A DNA stretch of 64,000 nucleotides, taken from Halichondria panicea. Taxonomy: Eukaryota > Porifera > Demospongiae > Suberitida > Halichondriidae. Position 1 is the first letter of the stretch. Every line of letters begins with the position of its first letter. The notes under the pieces were generated by a model, which saw only the letters and a program-made list of their open reading frames with translations, ran no database searches and was not told the DNA's origin. Made by a program: the position numbers and the translations under genes. Below, one piece after another: positions 4,088 through 23,894 of this stretch. The stretch spans positions 3,181,001 through 3,245,000 of the forward strand of contig NC_087391.1 in NCBI RefSeq assembly GCF_963675165.1, in the 5' to 3' direction.

Positions 4088-5553
4088 GAGTCTCATGTCC
4101 TAATCCATCACCACCACCCTTTTCTCCTTTGACCCCGGTTGATGAAGGGTGAGTTGCCAAACATTTTTATTACCATCACATGACTGTACTTTGTTAATTT
4201 CAGTGGAGAACAAGAGCTGTCTGTATTATTGAATGAGCTATATGTTAAGAATCTGCCAGTAGACCGGCTACTATCAGTCAATTGTCAACGAATTGTTGTT
4301 CGTCGCAAACACCTTCTGTTCGATGCAATGAAATACTTAAAAGTGACGTTTGTTGGAGAGCCTGCAGTTGACGATGGAGGGCCTCTTCGAGAGTTCTTCC
4401 ATCTCCTTGTAAAGAATTTATCCGAAGAAAACAAGCTGTTGTGTGGGCCTTATGATTGTCGAACGCCACGGAAGAACATCGTCGAGTTCCAGAAGAACTC
4501 TTTCTTTCAACTTGGGAAAATGATAGCTATGTCTCTTGTACATGGAGGTCTCTTGTACATGGAGGACCAGCCCCACATTTCTTCTCTCCTGCTGTGGCTG
4601 ACTTCATCTGTTATGGGATGTTCAAAGTTTACGCTTCCATTTCATTGTTATAATTATGCAATGCACCTATCAAATTTGGCCGTGAGCATTAATTAGGAAT
4701 GTTAATGTGTCATTGCCTAAATCTGAGCAGCTTATGTAATTAGTGGTTGTGGGGTTATTTAAATTCTGAACTTTAATGATGTTGAGTCATTGCACTTTAT
4801 AATTATTATAGCTGCAGAATTGTGCAACTGTGGACGAAGTGAGAGAGCTTCTGGATAGTGACAAGATGGGGTTTCGTTTTTCAATTGGTGTCTCTATCAA
4901 TTGGTGTCTCTATGCCAAGCTCATTGGTCCACTTCAACGATCGAGAGGCTATTATACGATCAGTGGCCACTCACTACTCTGTGCTGTCCGTGAAGGCAGA
5001 GCTTGACCAATTTCTCGATTGCTTCAAAGCTATGGGTGTTCTAGATCTATTTAGATCAAGACCGAACCAAATGAGACCTCTGTTGATTTCCGAGCCACAT
5101 GTCGATCTCACATCGGATTACATGATCTATTTGTTCAAGACTTGTCTCTCTCCATTGGGGAGTAATCAGAGAGAAGCTGAGGATGCTAGCATCTTGAAAT
5201 GGATCAACTATATTCAGATGATCGAAGGTTAGAATGAAAACAATAATAATTATGTTCCAATTTCATTTGTACTCTACAGATAATAATGGCAAAGTACAAG
5301 GTGAATCTCCCGATGGAGAACAGAGCCAATTTCTCGTGTCCTATGAAGTCGTTTGCCACAGGGTGTACCACCAGCTGGTTTCAGGATAGAGCCCTCTCTA
5401 AGATTCCAGTCATCAAGCCCCTATCCTACAGTCAACACCTGTACCAACACTATCCACCTTCCATTAACAAATCGTGGTTCCGATTCTTTCAATGTCTTTG
5501 CATATTGCATGTCCTCTGGCATCCTCAATAGTGCTGGATTTGGAAAAGTTTAA
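4088..5553 (+). pseudogene. HECT-type E3 ubiquitin ligase, copy A
   Basis: Four exons can be read: about 4,088-4,148, 4,204-4,627, 4,818-5,227 and 5,280-5,553, with GT-AG introns. The N-lobe contains VTFVGEPAVDDGGPLREFF, a HECT signature, and the next exon contains VKAELDQFLDCFKAMG. The C-lobe has VPPAGF, the catalytic-Cys motif TVNTCTNT, and ends SAGFGKV. Three breaks are visible: a 17-bp tandem duplication at 4,531-4,564, a 16-bp duplication at 4,881-4,912, and a shift near 5,362 where about 8 bp are missing relative to copy B. Discounting the two duplications rejoins MSLVHGG to PAPHFFSPAV and FRFSIG to VSMPSS. No UBZ or UIM exon was found upstream, where the antisense C48 gene lies. It is tail-to-tail with integrase copy A, 120 bp apart. 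Family is certain; activity is doubtful. Confidence 0.85.
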
Positions 5554-5672
5554 TACCAAGACACTGACATTGTTTATTACGATATCTCTATAATATATAT
5601 TTTTCCATGCAAATTCATGATTATTCACAATAATTATTGGAAGTTAATTAAGTTTCATGACCACAAAACTGA

Positions 5673-6860
5673 CTAAAAATGACAACTAGCACAAGTGTTT
5701 GATAAATGTTGCCCTACTTTACTACAAACTTCTCGGTATATATCACATCCAAAATCAGTGCTTTCTCTTAAGCAATCAATAGTTCGTACAATCCGTTTAA
5801 GGTGTGAGCAAGGGATGAATGACAACCGTGGCACACGTACATGGTCACGTGGTGGGTGACTGCACACTCAGACGTACCGGTGTTATGAATCATGTTCTGC
5901 TCGAGTGCACCTTGAATAAATAACTGGTTTGGAGTCATGTTTCGAGCACTTGCAACGGGATGGTTGTTCCAGCTTTCTACAAAACAATCTAGGGATTTAT
6001 TAATGCGTTTAAGGTACACAAAGCGCAGACAGTACAGGTTGATTTCATTCAGGCAATCTATATAGTACATTCTATATAGTACATTCTCGTCTTCCAGTTT
6101 ATAGAAGATGTGGTAAAAAATAGACGCAACACAACGGAAAACATCTCGCCATAATCTTTCAATGCGCTGGTTGTGTGTTGACGAACCAGTAATGATTGAA
6201 GATGAATCACAATGTTGTTCTACCATATAGCGCCAAACATCTACGTTTTCTCCACCCAAGTCTGATCTTATCCTAGTTGGCAATCCATGTCTTTCTACAG
6301 CATCTCGAAAGGCACCCAATACAGTTTCCGCACGGTTATTGTCACTGCAACGTAGAAACACCACAGTACGTGAGTAACCATCGATCCCACCGTCGATCCC
6401 ACCGTGAGTTACCAACCCCCACCTGATCAATTTATGGTGTCCATCAACATGCCAGACTGTGTTGGGCCCATCTGCATGATACACCCGGCATCTTATTGTA
6501 ATGCTCCTTCTAATTGGCTGTATTAATAGGGTCAACTCGATGAATCGATCCTCGTAACCGTGCTCTTTGTACAATTACCTCGTCTGGCAAGGTTACATCC
6601 GTTCCCCGTCGTTTGGATGAGCCTGTTTAATATTTTCAATGGATTCATCCAATTGTTCATCAGTAATGTCACTGTAAGAAACATGGTTCGGAACACCCTC
6701 CTCATTCAGTCTCCTATACAGAGTTGAGCGACTTATTTGCAGTAATTGTGCAATCTTGGTCCAGGTGAAACTCATTCCCCTTAAAAATTCCACATCATCC
6801 AAATTCCACATCATCCATGTTCAATGGGATTGACGGGCGACCAGCAGACCTGGATAAAAT
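5673..6860 (-). pseudogene. Integrase-type (rve, DDE) transposase, copy A
   Basis: Reading leftward: an acceptor near 6,855, a GRPSIPLN segment, a helix-turn-helix (WTKIAQLLQISRSTLYRRL), a linker, then the RNase H-like core. The first Asp is in VWHVDGHHKL, the second in RSDLGGENV, and the Glu in HNQRIERLW, 33 residues after the second Asp. The C-terminus reads DFGCDIYREV and stops near 5,673. Damage seen: a 16-bp duplication near 6,790-6,820, a frame change near 6,525, an in-frame 12-bp duplication giving GGIDGGIDG where copy B has GGIDG, and a shift near 5,845. Expected role: cutting and joining of the transposon ends. Upstream exons, if any, lie beyond the MITE at 6,915. It closely parallels the integrase at 21,019-22,866. 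Confidence 0.85.
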
Positions 6861-6914
6861 AAACCTGGATAAAATAAACATTATTAATTGTAACTTAACA
6901 TCTTATGACATTTA

Positions 6915-7539
6915 GACTGGAAACCATTCTTGGGGAGAGAGTTGTTGTCCCGTTGGAATGCAAAATGCAATTAGAACAAACCACAAAATGCGTAGGCGTG
7001 GGTGATATTACTTAACAGACCGCTAGTGATGTACGTATACTGAAGACCGATAATATTTTGCGCAGTAATATACTTAATACATGGACGGTGGCACATAAGT
7101 ATAAATATTTGTGACGTATTCTTGTGGGAGTGTGGTTTCGTCTAAATGACGATAAGATATGCAAAAGTAGTTTGGAAGCCCCTTAATGGTCTCATAATTC
7201 AGAGTTCATATTTACAAGCCTTGCTGTTAGACGCTGTTAGACTGGACACCACTCCCCTTCACTGCGCTCTGGGGACTGGCAAGCTGCCGTGTTTGAGTTG
7301 TCCCCCCAGTGCGTGAAGAATCTCACGCTCCCACAAGGATGCAAACGTCACAAATACTCATGTGCCAACCACCACCGCCCACAATATTATTGGCCTCGAG
7401 TATAAGTACATCACTGGCGGTCTGTTCTCGAGGCTGAAGCAATATCACCCACGCATTACGCCTTTTATGGTTTGTTCTAAAACAACTCTAACACATACAG
7501 TCACATACAGAGCGTAGTGAAGGGGGTGGTTTTCCAGTC
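6915..7539. mobile_element. Foldback MITE with TA duplication
   Basis: The ends GACTGGAAACCA and TGGTTTTCCAGTC are inverted and flanked by TA on both sides. About 220 bp of each arm (6,915-7,140 and 7,320-7,539) pair imperfectly, including TTAGAACAAACCA-like and GTGGGTGATATT blocks. A third partial copy of the terminus starts at 7,243. It is inserted upstream of the integrase inside the 6.9-kb element. A Tc1/mariner-type MITE is the likeliest class. Confidence 0.6.
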
Positions 7540-7860
7540 TACCATACCTTGCTGTCACTACTTGCTCACAGATAAATGATAAATGCATGTAGTCTGGCCA
7601 CACCCTTCCCAATAGTACAGTCAGTCATATAATTTACCTTTCTTCAAATTTACCTTTCTTCATCAGAATCCTCACTATGACAGTGTGGAGTTACTCCTTC
7701 TTCCGACAAAGCAGTCATTATCGCCTCGTAAAAAGTTTGTTCCAGCTCCTCTTCAGACATAGATGTCGTTGCCATTGTTTAACAATAAAATTATCAGCCC
7801 ATGTGGAGTTATGGTCGTCAAAGATACAAGTAAACTTCAATCTAGTAAGGTCGAAGTTGT

Positions 7861-8290
7861 GCTTTTTACTAAACATCACTGTGTAAACATCACTTTTTAG
7901 TAAATATCACTGCTTTTTACTAAACATCACTGCTTTTTAGTAAATATCACTGCTTTTTACTAAACATCACTGCTTTTTAGTAAATATCACTGCTTTTTAA
8001 CTAAACATCACTGCTTTTTAGTAAATATCACTGCTTTTTACTAAACATCACTGCTTTTTAGTAAACATCACTGCTTTTTACTAAATATCACTGCTTTTTA
8101 CTAAATATCACTTGTAAACATCATTTTTACTAATATCACTGCTTTTTAGTAAACATCACTGCTTTTTACTAAATATCACTGCAATATCACTGCTTTTTAG
8201 TAAACATCACTGCTTTTTACTAAATATCACTGCTTTTTACTAAATATCACTGCTTTTTAGTAAACATCACTGCTTTTTACTAAAATTAAT
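7861..8290. repeat. Minisatellite, about 20-bp unit
   Basis: Roughly twenty copies of 'TAAATATCACTGCTTTTTAC' alternate with a variant reading TAAACATCAC. There is no open reading frame. It could be part of the subterminal array of the 6.9-kb element. Confidence 0.9.
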
Positions 8291-8941
8291 ATCACTGCAG
8301 TGCAATGCACTGCTTTTATAACACTGATGTTTAGTAAATATCCGTGGCTCGAGGAATAGCGCCTTCTCGTGGACAATGTTCCTTAAAAAAGGATTTTGAT
8401 ACAAACGGCACTCCATACTCGAGACCATTGCAGCTGAATGCTGTAACGTAAGCAAGATTTACGGAGATGGAAACATAGATTACGGATTATAGGGAGAGAT
8501 TTTAAGAGATTTTGCGAGATTTTAAGATTTTAAGGAGATTTTGCCCACAGGCGTACAAGATTTTAAGGAGTGGCGGACCCCTCGAAATGGAATAATTGCG
8601 AGGTTTTTATTTTCCAATTTTCCAGCAAATGGGCGTGTCCGGAAACAAGGTGCCATGAGGAATGGTGATTAATGGTGATTAACAGGGGGTTTCCATATGC
8701 TGACTTGGCACTTTCGATTTATGATCGCCCTCTATATATTTTCTTGTGCTCCTAATCAGGAGCACAAGCTAAGAGGCCCTCTGGAGTGCACAGAATTTAT
8801 TGTATGTAAGCCAATCCTATTAAATACATCATACATCATGGCTGAGTTAGTGGTTCATAATAATATTATGGTTTCAGTGTTGATCATCTTGCATGTTGCA
8901 ACATTTGCTCTTTCATTGATCATACCACAGTCATGGTACAG

Positions 8942-15749: not shown

Positions 15750-17551
15750 TATAGTGCAGTTAACCATCAATGTCTAAAACTGTGTAGCAAAAAGTACTGG
15801 TTATATCTGTCTGATATTATGTTAGTATGTGTACTTTTGCATAACAATACACTAAAAAAAATTTTAGCTCATAGAAGTGAAGCATTGTTGAGATATTAAC
15901 TTGCCCACAAAAATATACAAAATTATGTGGCCAGTGATGTCATCGATGACGCGTTTTTTGATGTTACCGTGGAAACGCATTTTATGTTTTTCTGTCTGTA
16001 GCGGCTCTAGCAGTGATTGTAGAAGCTAAATATGCCAAAGAAAAGCAAGAGAAGATTACAAGCAAGTGCAGCTCTTCAAAAACAGAGAAGATTATCCGCA
16101 ATTGGTGGTGCTACCTCAACTCTCTCGCAGTCGCAGTCGCAGTCACAAGCAGATGAAACTGTGCCTACACCTCCCAGTCTTCCCCCTGTTTCTCCCCTAA
16201 CACCAGTTTCTGAAGAATCTGGAGATGATACAGAGCCTGAATCTAGTGACAACGAAGAGCCAGATGTGCGATCACAGGAGGAGATTCTAGAAGATTTTTG
16301 TCTTGAATGGATGGTGACGCTTGACAACGATGAAAAAAGTCTCTGGCTGTTCTTCTGTGCCATTTTTCTGCCAAACATCATGGCATGAAAGCGACAGAAT
16401 CTGCTCAGCTTGCTGCTAGTTTTGTTGGAAAAAATGATAAGACTGTTAGGCGATGGAGGACTGGTGTATTACGTAACAAAGGAGTTTTACCTCAAAGTAA
16501 ACAGGGAAGATACGAAAGGAAGGGTGTACTTTGGCACAATGAGAATCTAAACAAGATGGCAACACAATATGTACGCAATAATTCTTCCATTAAAGGTAAA
16601 CCGAATATGACTACGTTCGATTTTTGTACGTGGGTAAATACAACTCTTCTACCGAGCCTTACTCTAGAACCAGGCTTCCCTCGAAAAGTTGGGGTAAGTA
16701 CCTGCCGAAAATGGTTGTTGACACTTGGTTTTGAAGTGATTACGCCACGAAAGGGAGTTTTTATCGATGGTCACAAAAGGGTAGATGTCGTCAAAGCCCG
16801 CACCGAGTACTTGAGAAGAATGGTCAAGTTGGGGTATGTTAGCTTGACCAATGGACCCACACCTGACGCAATTAAAGCAATCCCTGTAGATATTGAACCA
16901 AGATCGTCGATCTAAAACTGTGTTCATTTTTCATGACGAAACTACATTTCACTCAAACGATGACCAAATATTGAAATGGGGTCTAAAGGGCGAGAAAACA
17001 GATTTTATTGACAATCACATTTTATTGACAATCACAACGGGTTTTTGGCACTAACAGACGAAGAATATGATCAAGCAAAATAGTCTAATCCTGATGCAAA
17101 GAAATATGCAAGAGACTTTTTAGAATACGGAACTGGAACTTAAAAAGATTTGTGGCACATATGCACCGAGCTATTAAAATAGCAGAGATAAAGTACCCCA
17201 AAGATCAAGGATGGAGGCTTTGTTGGATCTTCGACAACAGTAGCTGCCACAACGCCATGGCTGACGATGCGTTACACGTTCATCGTATGAATATATTTCC
17301 CGGTGGTAAGCAGAGGATATTAAGAGATACAAGCTACAATGGCAAAGAACAATGGCAAAGAACAAAGAATGTACACTGTAGTAAATGGTCAGAAAGTTGC
17401 CAAAGGATTGAAGCGTGTTCTGGAAGAGAGAGGTATTTCAACTGACGGTCGAAATAAAGAGTGGATGCAGTCTGTTCTGTCTCAACACATCGATTTCAAA
17501 TTCGTGCCAAAGTTTCACCCAGAATTAAATCCTATTGAACGTGTATGGGCA

Positions 17552-17557
17552 CAGATG
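17552..17557. repeat. Target-site duplication, left copy (CAGATG)
   Basis: CAGATG here abuts the TATGGGG end. The second copy is at 23,175-23,180. Removing the inner element and one copy rejoins the host gene codon-perfectly as ...TGGGCACAGATG-AAGCGATAT... Confidence 0.95.
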
Positions 17558-17905
17558 TATGGGGTGTTATCTGTGTCAAAATTACTACGCCAGTGTGCAT
17601 ATGCCAGTGTGCAATGTGCATATGTCAACATGCATGTGCATATGCCAGTTATGCCAGTGTGCAATGTGCGTATGCCAGTGTGCAATGTGCGTATGTCAAC
17701 ATGCATGTGCATATTCCAGTGTGCAATGTGCATATGCCAACATGCATGTGCATATGCCAGTGTGCGTGTGCAAACATTGCACACACGTCGTCAACACATA
17801 TGCCAGTGTGCAATATGGATATGTCAACATGCATATGTCAACATGCTATGTCAACATGCATATGCATATGGGAATTTGCGTATGTCAGTGTGCAATATGT
17901 ATATA
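17558..17905. repeat. Left terminal inverted repeat with internal array
   Basis: After the 30-bp end come repeats alternating between 'TATGCCAGTGTGCAATGTGC' and 'ATATGTCAACATGCATGTGC'. The Cys/His-rich open frames across it on both strands are repeat artefacts. Confidence 0.93.
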
Positions 17906-18027
17906 CCTCAACTGACAACAATAATTATGCATAATTATGCCAGTGTAGGCATTTTTTTATGAAAATATTTGCTGGCAATGTAACATCCACATGGTCTGGA
18001 TTTTAAATAAAGCACAGCATCATCATC

Positions 18028-20797
18028 ATGGCTGACAAAATTAGCAGAGCAAACAGCCTCTTAAAAGAGGCTGCAGAGCTATTGAACCCTACTGATGAAG
18101 ATTCACCTCCAGGTCCATCTACTGCATCTACTGCATCTAGGCCTACCGGTACCGGCAGCTCGTCTGTCATATCTAGGTACGTGAGCCTGCATGTACGTGT
18201 GCATGTAGAATAACAGGAGTGCATTCCTGAGAATAATTATAGTACTGTTATGCAATCCATCCATTCAGTGTTTTCAATGTCCAAGAGTTCATGCCAAGGG
18301 CAACTGGCAGAAGAAGAAACGCTGGAAGCACCCCTTACGAGAAAAAGGGTCGAGCTGGAATGACATGGACACACAAATTCGTATGTCTTGGTCAAACTGC
18401 TGTTGAAAGTGTGCCAAATCCTCAAGATAAGTATACACTGAAACAAGCTGACCTCGGTGAGAAGAAACTTGTGTTCAAGCTAAACGGGGATTATGTTCAT
18501 CTTAAAGAAGTGATTTTGCAATCATTTCCGTTATTGGTTAAGGCTGGTGGCTTTGAGCTACACCGAACAGACGGCCCATACTCCAGGGCATTGATCCCAA
18601 TAGAACAGAAGTTCTTCACCTCAGTTGCTAAACTCAAGTCGTATGTGGTGCAAGCAAGGGTGTACATTCGCCCAGTTCAAGCTGACATTATGGACATTTT
18701 CGGCTTACCATGTGAGACTGGAGAGGTAAATGGAACAACTGACAAAATAATGTGCACAGTGCTATAATTATGTATGTTCTCCTTAATAAATTAAATGTAG
18801 GGTACAGAACCCAAAGAGAGGTGCTTGGAATGCGGAAAAGAAGTGGAAATCTCTTACTTAAAAACACATATTGAAGTGTGCAAAGAAGCAAGCGCCTTGT
18901 GCAAAAAAGAGAAGGAAAAGGGAAAGTAGGTATTCTTTACTTTTGTATCAATTTGCAACGGCTTTTTGTGTTAGGGATTCTGATTCTTGTGACAGCCTGC
19001 CCCCTACACCACCAACATTGGCTGAATTGCTACGGTCATCAGCAAGGAATGCAATCCGCTCTGGGCAGCCTGACCAGACCCCTACACCTCCAACATCATC
19101 AGCATGTTCAACAACCCGCTCTGGTCGTTTTGCATCGTAAGTCAAACAAACGTGATAACTCAATTATTTATTATACGATAGGGCATACATCAATCTCCTT
19201 GAGGAAGGCCTCCCTGACCCTACACCTCCAACATTGGCTGAAACATCAGCTTGTTCAACAACCCGCTCTGAGCAGCCTGTTCGTTTTTCATCCACTGGTT
19301 ATTCGTAAGTCAAACAAACGTCATAGACTCAATTATTTATTATACGATAGGGCATACGTCGATCTCCTCGAGGAAGACCTCCCTGCCGAATACGAGCCGG
19401 AACTACAGATGGCCTTAGAAGCTAGTCTTGCTACTGCTGAAAGAGATTTTTCAATGTAATAATAAGTGTTTCATGTACAGCTAATATAATAATATAACTA
19501 TCATAGGCAAGAAGTTGACACCCCTGAAATAGTCAAGCAACATGTCTCAGAACTGAACATTAAATGTGGAGTTGAAGACCCACACCAACAGCTAACTGTG
19601 CGACGTAAGCACCTCTGGGAGGACATCAAACGGTGTTTTTCGAAGCCCTACACAAATGTGTTACTGCCACTACGAGTCACCTTTGTCGGTGAATCTGGAG
19701 CTGATGAAGGTGGACCCAAACGAGAATTCTTTCGACTTGCATTGGAGTCTTGTATTGGTAATTCATCCTTGTTCACTGGTTCCACATACGAAAAAGTGCT
19801 CTTGCATAATACCACTGCTCTCCTCCAAAAGCATTATAAATATGTTGGGCACATTTGTGCAATGTCCATAGTGCAAGGTGGACCTGGACCCATGTGTTTT
19901 TCAAGTTGGGTATATGATTATTTAGCCGAAGGGTTGGACGGTGTGGTGATCAATGTCAGTGATGTACTTGTTGATTCAGTGAAAGATTTTTTGGGAAAGG
20001 TACGCTATACACCTAACATGATTCAGACTATAATTATGTTGATATACAGGTTGCACTGACTACTGACGTCACCACCCTTCGTGAGCTCTTGCGTGAAGAT
20101 CCAGCTGATGTTGTTTTTGAGTGTGGGTTCTCGAAACCTATCACACAAGTGTCCTTAGAAGATGTCCCAATGTTGCACAAGGCGATAGCCATCAATTCGT
20201 GTTTGGTGCCAATCAAAGCCGAGTTGGATCAAATGAAAGAAGGTTTGCGTCTATTTAACGTTGACGGACTCCTCAAGAAATATCCAGCCAAGATGAAGAA
20301 GCTGTTTGTGGTATGTGGCTCACCAGCTCGCCTTTCTCTAGCGGAGTTTATGGCACTCACTGAGTATAACTACTCCGTCAATGGTTCAAATGACAGAGAG
20401 GCAGAAGAGTCTACCACTATGAACTGGGTTGAATTTCTGGCGGAAATAGAAAATGGACTAGCAGGTAAACCAGACATTCTAAGAGTATGTGTGCAAGATA
20501 TCTGTGATTCTTATCTTTACAGTGTGCACCGTTCATTCTATTGATGGAGGGAATGAGGAACACACACTCAGCTTGGAAGATATACTTGTTTTTGCAACTG
20601 GAGCTGACCGAGTTCCTCCAATGGGCTTCCATAAAATGGTGACGATCGATTTTGACCGATCAAACATATTCCCTACTGCCTCCACTTGTTCTCTGACGAT
20701 GTACCTGCCCATGGCCACTACTATGATGTCTTATGACCAATTTAAAACTGGCATGATTGAAGGACTAGTAAGCGGTTTTGGTTTTGGACAAGCCTAA
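18028..20797 (+). CDS. HECT-type E3 ubiquitin ligase with UBZ-like finger and UIM (G2E3-like), transposon-encoded
   Basis: Nine exons: 18,028-18,176, 18,269-18,725, 18,801-18,925, 18,975-19,136, 19,182-19,304, 19,351-19,455, 19,507-19,999, 20,050-20,464, 20,523-20,797. They total 2,304 bp, giving 767 residues in one open frame, and every intron is GT-AG. Residues 1-55 are Ser/Thr/Pro-rich. Residues 130-200 hold the AGGFELHR...ARVYIRPVQ block typical of G2E3-like proteins. Residues 210-229 form C-x2-C-x11-H-x3-C, the Rad18-type ubiquitin-binding (UBZ4) spacing. A UIM (YEPELQMALEASLATAE) lies near 353-369. HECT fills about 395-767, with the catalytic Cys at 732 in TASTCSLT, 35 residues before the end GFGFGQA. 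Expected role: thioester-linked ubiquitin transfer, reading ubiquitin through UBZ and UIM. The reading frame is intact, unlike nearly every other gene here, which suggests recent insertion or selection. Confidence 0.93.
19078..19393 (+). repeat. Tandem duplication of an exon-intron unit inside the HECT gene
   Basis: Two copies of about 150-165 bp each run from CCTACACCTCCAACAT through a 45-46-bp intron to GGCATAC..GATCTCCT-type sequence. The two introns (19,137-19,181 and 19,305-19,350) are nearly identical, both starting GTAAGTCAAACAAACGT. The coding result is a repeated TPPT...SACSTTRS...SAY-NLLEE-LP block. Confidence 0.88.
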
Positions 20798-20811
20798 CTG
20801 TTCATAGTTGA

Positions 20812-20990
20812 AGAACCACTTCTGTTTTTCATTTGGTTGCAATCACGTATTTTAATCACTGTGAGAACCACTTCATTTTGATTGCAGAACCACTTTTGTT
20901 TTTTTCTTTTTCATTGGTTGCAATCACGTATTTTAATCACTGTGAGAGCCACTTCATTTTGATTGCAGAACCACTTTTGTTTTTTCATTC
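20812..20990. repeat. About 75-bp tandem repeat downstream of the HECT gene
   Basis: Two and a half copies of a unit containing 'GGTTGCAATCACGTATTTTA' and 'GAACCACTT'. It lies between the two convergent genes, where transcript 3' ends are expected. Confidence 0.85.
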
Positions 20991-21018
20991 ATTGATTATA
21001 AAAATAAAATAAACAATC

Positions 21019-22866
21019 TCAAACTAGTATATCAATAGCTTGTCGATACAAATTTATACCATAGTTGGAATCATCTCCAGTAGGATCAATATTGCACCGA
21101 CGTAATTGTTGTAAGCATAGTTAAGGGTTTGGCATTGTCACCTGTGGTACAACTACAGTATGGTCATCAAGCGAGTACGGTAGTGGAGCACTGAGGTCGA
21201 TTCCATCACTTACAGATACAGACCCCTATAGAAAAACAACGTATTAGAACAAGCACCAACAACTAAGTGATTACATCATTGAGGGGAATTTGATTTTTGA
21301 CAGTAGTAGTATGGACATAATTATAATTATTTATACAAGCTGAGCTAAAAATGTTCTGGGAAGGAATATATGTCCCGGACCCCGATCCTCCTATAGTTTG
21401 TATAGTTGTATAGTTTGCAATGCACCTTGTGCATATGTACGCACCCCCCCTCCCCCCAATTTTTTATTTCGCCTATTTGCCCTAAATAAATCACAAAGTT
21501 CACTTAAAACTTACATAGTTTTATAGTTTTGTTGGTGTATCTGTGCACAGCGAATAGCACCAGAAACAAACAATTGTATCGGACTTCGATTCCCACAGGA
21601 GCTCAGTGGGTGGTGAGCATAAGCATATCTAAAACTGTCCAGGCTCTGTTGAATTCTCGGTTTATAGACATAGTGGAGAACAAGTAAATGAAGCTCGTTG
21701 CATGGATCAAGATGTCCACACGTTTCGAGATAAGAGAAGATGTTGTAGTATAGACCAAGACAACCTTGATACACGTCTCTCCAAAGTCTCTCGATTCTTT
21801 GGTTATGAACCGATCGACCCATAATCATACCTTCACCTAATCCAGTGTGCTGGCGAGACCACATGTATTCGGCTACCTTAATATTTTCTCCTCCCATATC
21901 TGATCTCACTCGTAGTGGACATCCGTACGTGTTAACTGCTTCAAGGAAATACTGAAAAACCAATTCGGAAGTGTTGGTAGTAGAACAATTCAAAAACACA
22001 GGCAACCTTGAATAACCATCTATTCCACCATGCACCACAAATCTCCATCTGGGTTAAAAAAAACTGGTTTATACAGCTGCATGCATGTATATAATTATAC
22101 AGAAAACTTAGTGGCCACATAATTATGTATTGTGCACACATACTTAAATAGGCGGCCATACCTATTATAGGCTACATAAAAAAGCATCATACCTTACTAA
22201 TTTATGGTTTCCATCTATGTGCCATAAATATTGGGGTGCAGGAACGTTGTAGACTCGTCGACGTACACTGGTATGAAGCCTACTAGCTATACCCTCAGGA
22301 TCAGTCCGTCGTAGAGATTCTCTTACTCGAATTTGTTGAGTAATTATTCCCTGTGCCCGAAGGTGACCGTTCATCATTTTGCTACCACATCCTGGATGTT
22401 GTGCAGATATTGTTGTCACAATCTCATCGAGGTTTTGGTCGCTGATACAGCAATAGTTAGTTTCATATGAGAGGCCATACTGCCTCATTCGCCTACAAAC
22501 AGTACTTCTAGACACACCAAGAATTGTGGCAATGTCTTGAGACGTGAACTGGAGGTCCATGAGACTCTCAAGTGCACTAGGGGAAATTTCGAATGCAGGC
22601 CGGCCTGGTATGGATACTTCAACATCTTGAAATTGCTTCCAGCACTCAAATACATTTTGTATTACTTGAGAAGGAATTAGACCACCAAAACTTAAATCAG
22701 TTTCGATCAAGTCAGCATATAGTGATTCCAGGCGAACACAAAAGTTTTCTAACTCGTCAGTGTCATCTACATCAACATGCTGTATACTAACAACAAGTGC
22801 ATCAAGCCTATTCGCAAGTGAAGCTACAACTCCTTCCATTTGGTGGGCTTTGCATTTAGAGCACAC
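21019..22866 (-). CDS. DD35E integrase-type transposase, copy B
   Basis: Three exons on the minus strand: 22,866-22,193, 22,048-21,515 and 21,225-21,019. The protein starts MCSKCKAHQ and has a helix-turn-helix (FTSQDIATILGVSRSTVCRRM). The catalytic core has its first Asp in LWHIDGNHKL, the second in RSDMGGENI and the Glu in HNQRIERLWRDV; exactly 35 residues separate the last two. GGIDGYSR follows the first Asp, as usual for this family. An 8-bp duplication ends exon 2 (21,515-21,530). Discounting it makes the three exons total 1,407 bp (468 residues) and restores phase into exon 3. A TAA at 21,121-21,123 would remove the last 33 or so residues, beyond the core. It lies 222 bp from the HECT stop and 60 bp from the right inverted repeat. 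Expected role: mobilising this element. Confidence 0.88.
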
Positions 22867-22924
22867 CTAGCATGTTCACCTTTGACCTCCGCATGACATG
22901 TACGTATCGTGAACTTGCGATGTC

Positions 22925-23174
22925 ATACATCATAGATACATGCATGTAAATTCACATGCTGACATATACACATTGGACACTGACATAATTATATAAATGT
23001 GCAGCACACATTGATTGCACACTGGCATATGCATATGCATGTTGACATATGCACATTGCACACTGGCATATGCACATGCATGTTGACATATGCACATTGC
23101 ACACCGGCATATGCACATTGCACACCGGCATATGCACACTGGCATAGTAATTTTGACACAGATAACACCCCATA
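22925..23174. repeat. Right terminal inverted repeat with internal array
   Basis: Reverse complement of the left end: the first 30 bases are identical, followed by the same alternating 20-21-bp units. The array starts about 60 bp from the integrase start, so it may also contain that gene's promoter. Confidence 0.93.
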
Positions 23175-23180
23175 CAGATG
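23175..23180. repeat. Target-site duplication, right copy (CAGATG)
   Basis: Abuts the element end ...CACCCCATA and is followed at once by the continuation of the interrupted transposase gene. Confidence 0.95.
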
Positions 23181-23894
23181 AAGCGATATACAAGAGCACA
23201 CTGTAATTATTCCATTCAATCTTTACGAGTAAACATACCTAATTCATACGAATTCACGAACGAAAACATTCAAAACCATTGTAGGAAAGTTAGACACTAC
23301 ATGTTTGGCTATCTAGAAGGACTTGTGCCTGGAAAGGAGCTGGATGAGAAACTTAAAAAGTATAAAACTGCGGTGAAGTCACACAGGCGTATTGGAATAC
23401 ACGAGTGACCACGACAATTTGTCCTAGAACTTTCTAATGACCTAACTTAGTTTATTGTACTGTTTTGTGCACTGTTTCATAATACTAACATGATTGCATT
23501 AATTTTTATAAAGTTGAAACAATTCCTGCAACGGTGCCATAATAAAATAATAGTCTACTTATTGAATCTACTTCTTACTTAATGTGACCTAGTATGGTTT
23601 GCAATGGAATGTAAACCTTGCATACCAAATATGGACTTGTGAAACCACACAGGGCTGGAGTTAAATCACTTTTAAACAAAATACAATATTAGCTCTAAGG
23701 TTAAAGGTGAACCAAAAAAATCAAATTTGAAGCCATACAAAATGTAGCCCAGTCCACCCCCTTTAAGATAAAACACCATGGAGATATTAAACAATAAAAA
23801 AAGCCAATAGAATGGGCATTTGTGGCTAACTGCACTATATAAAAGAAGAGAGGGTATGCATGGCCATGAAACTCAAATCACTATCTATAGTACA

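Follow-up and report, generated by a model that had tools for sequence, protein, structure and literature searches.

A HECT ubiquitin ligase gene as the second gene of an IS3EU-type DNA transposon lineage in the sponge Halichondria panicea

By the usual view, a cut-and-paste transposon requires nothing beyond a transposase. What, then, is a HECT ubiquitin ligase gene doing beside the integrase of a DNA transposon, as cargo or as a working part? The question is raised by an element of 5,617 bp that occupies positions 17558-23174 of the window, a 64-kb stretch of Halichondria panicea DNA from the contig labeled C15.

Boundaries, genes, and classification of the element

The ends of the element are identical as inverted repeats over 30 bp, with TATGGGGTGTTATCTGTGTCAAAATTACTA at 17558..17587 on the forward strand and the identical sequence at 23145..23174 on the reverse strand. 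An exact CAGATG duplication lies on both sides (17552..17557 and 23175..23180, forward strand). The original prediction had claimed both features, and both are present; when the whole window was scanned for TA..TA inverted ends 1.5 to 12 kb apart that match in 15 of their 16 outermost bases and are flanked by an exact 6-bp duplication, this element was the sole return. Short repeats are dense beside both ends (17588..17907, mirrored at ~22964-23144) and are possibly transposase binding sites.

A degraded transposase gene is interrupted by the insertion between two of its codons; the 5' side of this gene is found at 16334..17557, with its frames broken in places, and the 3' side at 23181..23408, both on the forward strand. 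The piece upstream of the insertion is DDE_3-like (E 2.4e-05, 24.7 bits, below the curated cut-off of 28.6). An empty-site query of 123 bases, in which the element was removed and both flanks were joined around a single copy of the duplication, matches C5:4714748-4714867 and C13:3155769-3155889 at 98% identity across the junction. Because these two uninterrupted relatives align through the insertion point, the predicted insertion between codons of another transposase gene is real and is placed to the base, and the boundaries are secure.

Within these boundaries lie two genes that face each other, as had been predicted. The HECT E3 ligase gene occupies 18028..20797 on the forward strand, and its sequence-derived model joins nine exons (18028-18176, 18269-18725, 18801-18925, 18975-19136, 19182-19304, 19351-19455, 19507-19999, 20050-20488, and 20523-20797) through GT-AG introns, all eight of which are unchanged in a sister copy on contig C11. 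The predicted nine exons and HECT identity thus stand, and the predicted length of 767 residues is revised to 775 amino acids in the present model. The HECT domain passes the curated Pfam cut-off (PF00632, E 1.1e-10, 42.2 bits versus 23.9). Its predicted catalytic cysteine, Cys740 (codon 20687..20689, forward strand), lies in a TASTC motif that aligns with that of E6AP, and this C-lobe residue is retained in nine of nine aligned sequences and in eight of eight in another alignment. The ligase is probably catalytically active. E6AP/UBE3A, the best sequence match among solved structures, differs from the element ligase in its N-terminal part and is not known to be mobile.

Exon 2 (18269..18725, forward strand) encodes a conserved N-terminal domain (WTHKF...GGFEL...YIRPVQ) that is found in six other transposon families. 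Solved structures compared with this domain gave 24 matches, with the best stretches on HECT parts only. Exon 3 (18801..18925, forward strand) encodes a C2HC-type finger (CLECGK..H..C), for which Pfam matches are weak only (E 0.088-0.11) and the pattern is retained in other families. A further stretch of the ligase, which by eye we take to be a ubiquitin-interacting motif, is absent from the Pfam matches, and a search of NCBIfam returned nothing useful.

The integrase/transposase gene occupies 21121..22839 on the reverse strand in a three-exon model (22839-22193, 22048-21515, and 21208-21121). Its core matches rva_4 (E 1.3e-73), and its triad of D209, D266, and E302, the latter pair separated by 35 residues, bears out the DD35E assignment; the triad is retained in 10 of 10 loci printed from a set of 16. 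With respect to the N-terminal HHCC zinc domain, which IS3EU transposases lack, Pfam gives helix-turn-helix matches, among which the integrase zinc-finger model does not appear. What the original prediction left unreported is a premature in-frame stop in the window copy, which cuts the frame off after 422 residues, at 21123-21121, with ~34 codons still to come before another stop is reached. In the sister copy on C11 this early stop is missing, and the same frame continues to the position corresponding to 21019. That copy has its own target duplication, GAGACG, and a 7-bp frameshift in its HECT gene. Gaps aside, identity between the two copies is 99.86%, and in each of them one of the two frames is damaged.

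These features place the element almost certainly among two-gene DNA transposons of the IS3EU/GingerRoot type. In the main text of PMC10045372, IS3EU and GingerRoot transposons are described as having TA..TA ends, 6-bp duplications, and an integrase-like DDE transposase whose first D lies 100-300 residues into the protein. The sponge element is like them in its ends, duplications, and DDE core, with the first D at residue 209, and the IS3EU-like identity first proposed fits. The same text gives duplications of 4 bp, or 4-5 bp, for Ginger1 and Ginger2, versus the 6 bp found here. By family, the integrase-like transposase would cut and join the TA..TA ends, leaving 6-bp duplications. Unlike IS3EU and GingerRoot as described there, the sponge lineage has a standing HECT gene, and the word HECT is absent from the main text of that paper.

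Extra genes have precedent in fungi. Fungal IS3EU elements are described in the main text of PMC12730594 as having TAYGG..CCRTA ends, 6-bp duplications, and genes for a TET/JBP dioxygenase and, running opposite to the transposase, an alpha-kinase. The sponge element is like them in its similar ends, its duplications, and the presence of an extra gene; it is unlike them in that the extra gene is a ubiquitin ligase, and HECT is likewise absent from that main text. Two further papers in which HECT, "DNA transposons," and "superfamily" co-occur (PMC8195603 and PMC12092107) have unrelated content in their available text. IS3EU and HECT were not found together in the literature searched, although an earlier mention is possible in Repbase and most subscription papers, which lay outside its scope. 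IS3EU elements and passenger genes are thus already known; what is new is the standing presence of a ubiquitin ligase gene, as second gene, in an animal IS3EU lineage.

Linkage of ligase and integrase across the genome

The search covered 131,455,214 bases in 39 contigs, three of which hold ten matches to the Wnt family, a hallmark of animals. Genome searches score the best candidates only, so that hit counts are lower bounds, and some HECT matches are weak pieces of decayed copies. The Pfam HECT family gave at least 95 matches in 54 loci. From these matches alone, an integrase relative lies within 5 kb at 28 of the 54 loci and faces the HECT match at every one of the 28. When a search with the window HECT protein was added, 72 HECT loci were found, 43 with an integrase near and 40 of these facing it; the three exceptions lie beside a nested or neighboring element. 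Random placement gave a mean of 0.56 linked loci and a maximum of 4 in 1,000 trials.

Counted from the integrase side, for which two more divergent HECT queries were also used, a facing HECT match lies within 5 kb at 68 of 93 loci (random placement: mean 0.17, maximum 3 in 500 trials). Six of the other loci have a same-strand HECT match only, and 19 have no HECT match. By way of control, a HECT match falls within 6 kb at only 2 of 81 DDE_3 transposase loci. The presence of a facing HECT gene beside so many integrases, in several divergent families, makes the ligase a standing gene of the lineage. A lone HECT capture is ruled out by the same count. The original prediction called the ligase cargo, and it does lie inside the element boundaries, but the word is too weak for this degree of linkage. 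We conclude with high confidence that the HECT ligase is an integral, conserved gene of this transposon lineage in this animal.

Could a host HECT gene have come to lie between inverted repeats by accident or through misassembly? We found no evidence in support of such an artefact, and the uninterrupted relatives of the target site, the second copy with its own duplication, and the 68 linked loci make it exceedingly improbable.

Ends were sought at 16 fetched HECT-bearing loci besides the window, and with the window element on C15 eight HECT-bearing copies were delimited, the others being C11:3308358, C7:6138241, C7:2958367, C1:17202230, C16:2236671, C5:893598, and C1:9075435; at the remaining fetched loci, ends were not found or were masked. 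The first 30 end bases agree at all 30 positions in seven of these copies and at 29 in one. Exact 6-bp duplications flank seven, with the flanks of the eighth agreeing in 4 of 6 bases. Among these copies there are four distinct 30-bp end types (TATGG..CAAAA), and the termini are TATGG..CCATA in seven of the eight, with TATGT at one end of the eighth.

Across the genome, the generic end pattern has 343 matches versus 4 for a reversed control, and the window end type (a 20-mer with up to two mismatches) has 55 versus 1. Seventeen window-type end pairs, paired by eye, include three that carry both genes (C15, C11, and C7:6138241), so that the search by ends proposed in the original prediction did recover HECT and integrase together, and copies of this end family other than the window's, at C11 and C7:6138241, do contain HECT. 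Four pairs of 2.3-3.2 kb, two of them read except for 104 and 187 bases, match neither gene; a 2.8-kb pair was read in part, and the remainder span ~1 kb. Exact duplications flank 7 of 10 window-type pairs with readable flanks, one of the three misses perhaps reflecting a wrong start coordinate. Together, gene-bearing and gene-less pairs look as is common for a family with autonomous members and internally deleted derivatives.

Selection on the ligase and its possible roles

To ask what keeps the ligase in place, we compared the window genes with those of the C7:6138241 family. Over 685 codons of HECT, pS is 0.774, which is saturated, and pN is 0.266; over 379 codons of integrase, the values are 0.760 and 0.181. 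With pN well under saturated pS, both genes are under purifying selection. The dN/dS comparison suggested for HECT thus gave an answer in one deep comparison; seven near-identical copy pairs, which differ at no more than 10 positions in either gene and give ratios between 0 and 2.5, have too few changes to decide anything.

This selection bears on the alternative of a passenger gene, one taken up in the distant past and retained through hitchhiking or for its benefit to the host. In its favor are the broken HECT frame of the C11 copy and the state of the C16:2236671 subfamily. Eight integrase-bearing copies of that subfamily were counted (C16:2238838, C7:2959785, C7:5762591, C5:4100595, C12:1558616, C1:13640605, C23:14004, and C8:4028353), and the N-terminal domain was matched only in the C16, C7:5762591, and C5 copies, with no match near the other five. 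Linkage nevertheless persists among families in which, the closest pair left out, HECT pieces share no more than 34-51% identity, and this, together with purifying selection in the deep comparison, leaves a passenger gene an unlikely account. Ligase shortening can be followed in the element at C7:2958367-2962316, which keeps much of the HECT domain and has lost ~1.3 kb before it. Its intact ends and exact duplication indicate that copies with cut-down ligases have been mobile, perhaps with help in trans.

The best explanation of the whole, which we hold to be reasonably probable, is an IS3EU-type two-gene transposon with a conserved ligase that acts in trans against host restraint. The ligase would most likely serve the spread of the element itself: ubiquitin would be loaded on the catalytic cysteine, the N-terminal domain and zinc finger would recognize host targets, and the ligase would mark host proteins that hold the element in check, for example those of silencing or restriction. 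Counting against this explanation are the shortened ligases of the C16:2236671 subfamily, the lack of any HECT match at 19 of the 93 integrase loci, the scarcity of changes between near-identical copies, a correlation of HECT and integrase distances that hangs on the closest pair (below), and the one damaged gene in each copy of the closest family. The choice of a host-directed target over the transposase is by itself tentative, somewhat short of an even chance, and is favored by analogy with the fungal IS3EU dioxygenase, which is proposed in the main text of PMC12730594 to aid escape from methylation silencing.

The ligase may instead act on its own transposase or transpososome, setting the transposase level or stripping the complex from joined DNA for repair. 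Such a partnership would fit the lasting pairing of the two genes in families that have diverged, and shared divergence would fit it too. Among eight families, HECT identity is 34-72% and integrase identity 42-77%, and the distances of the two genes correlate (r about 0.73-0.75; 259 of 40,320 permutations reach 0.735). Without the closest pair, however, r falls to 0.23 (653 of 5,040 permutations); the correlation rests on that pair, and co-divergence is not upheld. HECT also changes faster than integrase, as the pN values above show, which argues against action on the transposase and would also suit a protein following host targets. We regard action on the transposase as possible, though doubtful. 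The roles first proposed for the ligase, in transposase stability, host chromatin, or defense, are likewise candidates. A ligase kept across deep divergence implies that control of protein fate belongs to the transposon life cycle, and it suggests that animals have a parallel to the fungal elements with their DNA-demethylating enzymes. Such a lineage would also offer a way to find the host proteins that these elements must overcome.

Relatives in other animals and arrangements in the genome

Human G2E3 has N-terminal PHD/RING fingers. No Pfam hit to such fingers was found in the element ligase at E<=1, so that it does not qualify as a G2E3 orthologue; what it has in common with G2E3 and "G2E3-like" proteins is the HECT domain. 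When a protein collection was searched with a two-sequence profile and 8,000 candidates were scored, 40 relatives were returned. Those named include proteins of the octocorals Paramuricea and Dendronephthya (G2/M phase-specific E3 ligase-like), the sea anemone Actinostola, and the cyprinid fish Leuciscus. One cluster among them comprises 222 sequences, a number in keeping with a repeated gene. P0001, an octocoral protein that bears the name G2E3-like, has the same layout of N-terminal domain, C2HC finger, and HECT as the element ligase, and the N-terminal domain and finger are common to P0001, P0006, and P0009. In P0006, a predicted protein from the eukprot set, DDE_1 and HTH_psq transposase domains are joined to this type of HECT, in either a real fusion or a gene-model error. 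A search of the collection with the HECT region gave nothing useful, and scans of viral and prokaryote contigs gave 11 and 14 pattern matches, none confirmed.

The original prediction held that such elements could be the source of the many G2E3-like HECT genes of basal animals. The layout in common with P0001 lends this partial support, with linkage to an integrase read in this genome only. In the fish Cottus, an unclassified repeat is reported in the available text of PMC5638112 to match G2E3, which is consistent with mobile HECT genes but is no proof of them. More speculatively, animal IS3EU-type transposons may be two-component systems of transposase and ubiquitin ligase whose autonomous copies cannot invade without ubiquitylation, and a large share of the HECT genes called "G2E3-like" in sponges, cnidarians, and fish may have arisen from this transposon gene, as copies or through domestication; we think this rather unlikely as it stands. 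A lineage with a standing ligase gene would also provide an origin for expanded sets of HECT genes that are now annotated as ubiquitin genes of the host.

Within the window, a second, degraded HECT and integrase element lies at 4286-8417, with HECT pieces at 4286-4549 and 4894-5547, an integrase at 5882-6793 on the reverse strand, and a right end at 8417; its left end was looked for and not found. A further subfamily is represented by L064 (C6:6758500-6766300), the HECT pieces of which are ~45% identical to those of the window and for which no matching end pair was found. The locus at C1:8835046 was at first read as having no HECT gene, a reading that is ruled out, as a HECT C-lobe, though divergent, is present in L086 there and faces the integrase (E 0.001, 19.2 bits versus the cut-off of 23.9); a search with this HECT gave 35 matches.

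Other arrangements of the two genes were also seen. A same-strand HECT match lies ~3.0 kb downstream of the integrase at C15:5971496, C4:2654320, C4:3498270, and C7:4193342. The locus C6:6881774-6891773 is apparently nested, with a HECT and integrase pair between the HECT and integrase matches of another pair. At six sites, 7-27 kb across, two copies of one subfamily stand in mirror order, that is, integrase, HECT ... HECT, integrase (C1:8835046-8843315, C1:4126669-4153752, C8:780883-796890, C9:2874332-2881423, C13:4273554-4281307, and C16:4429677-4446660); such pairs are perhaps composite units that move together.
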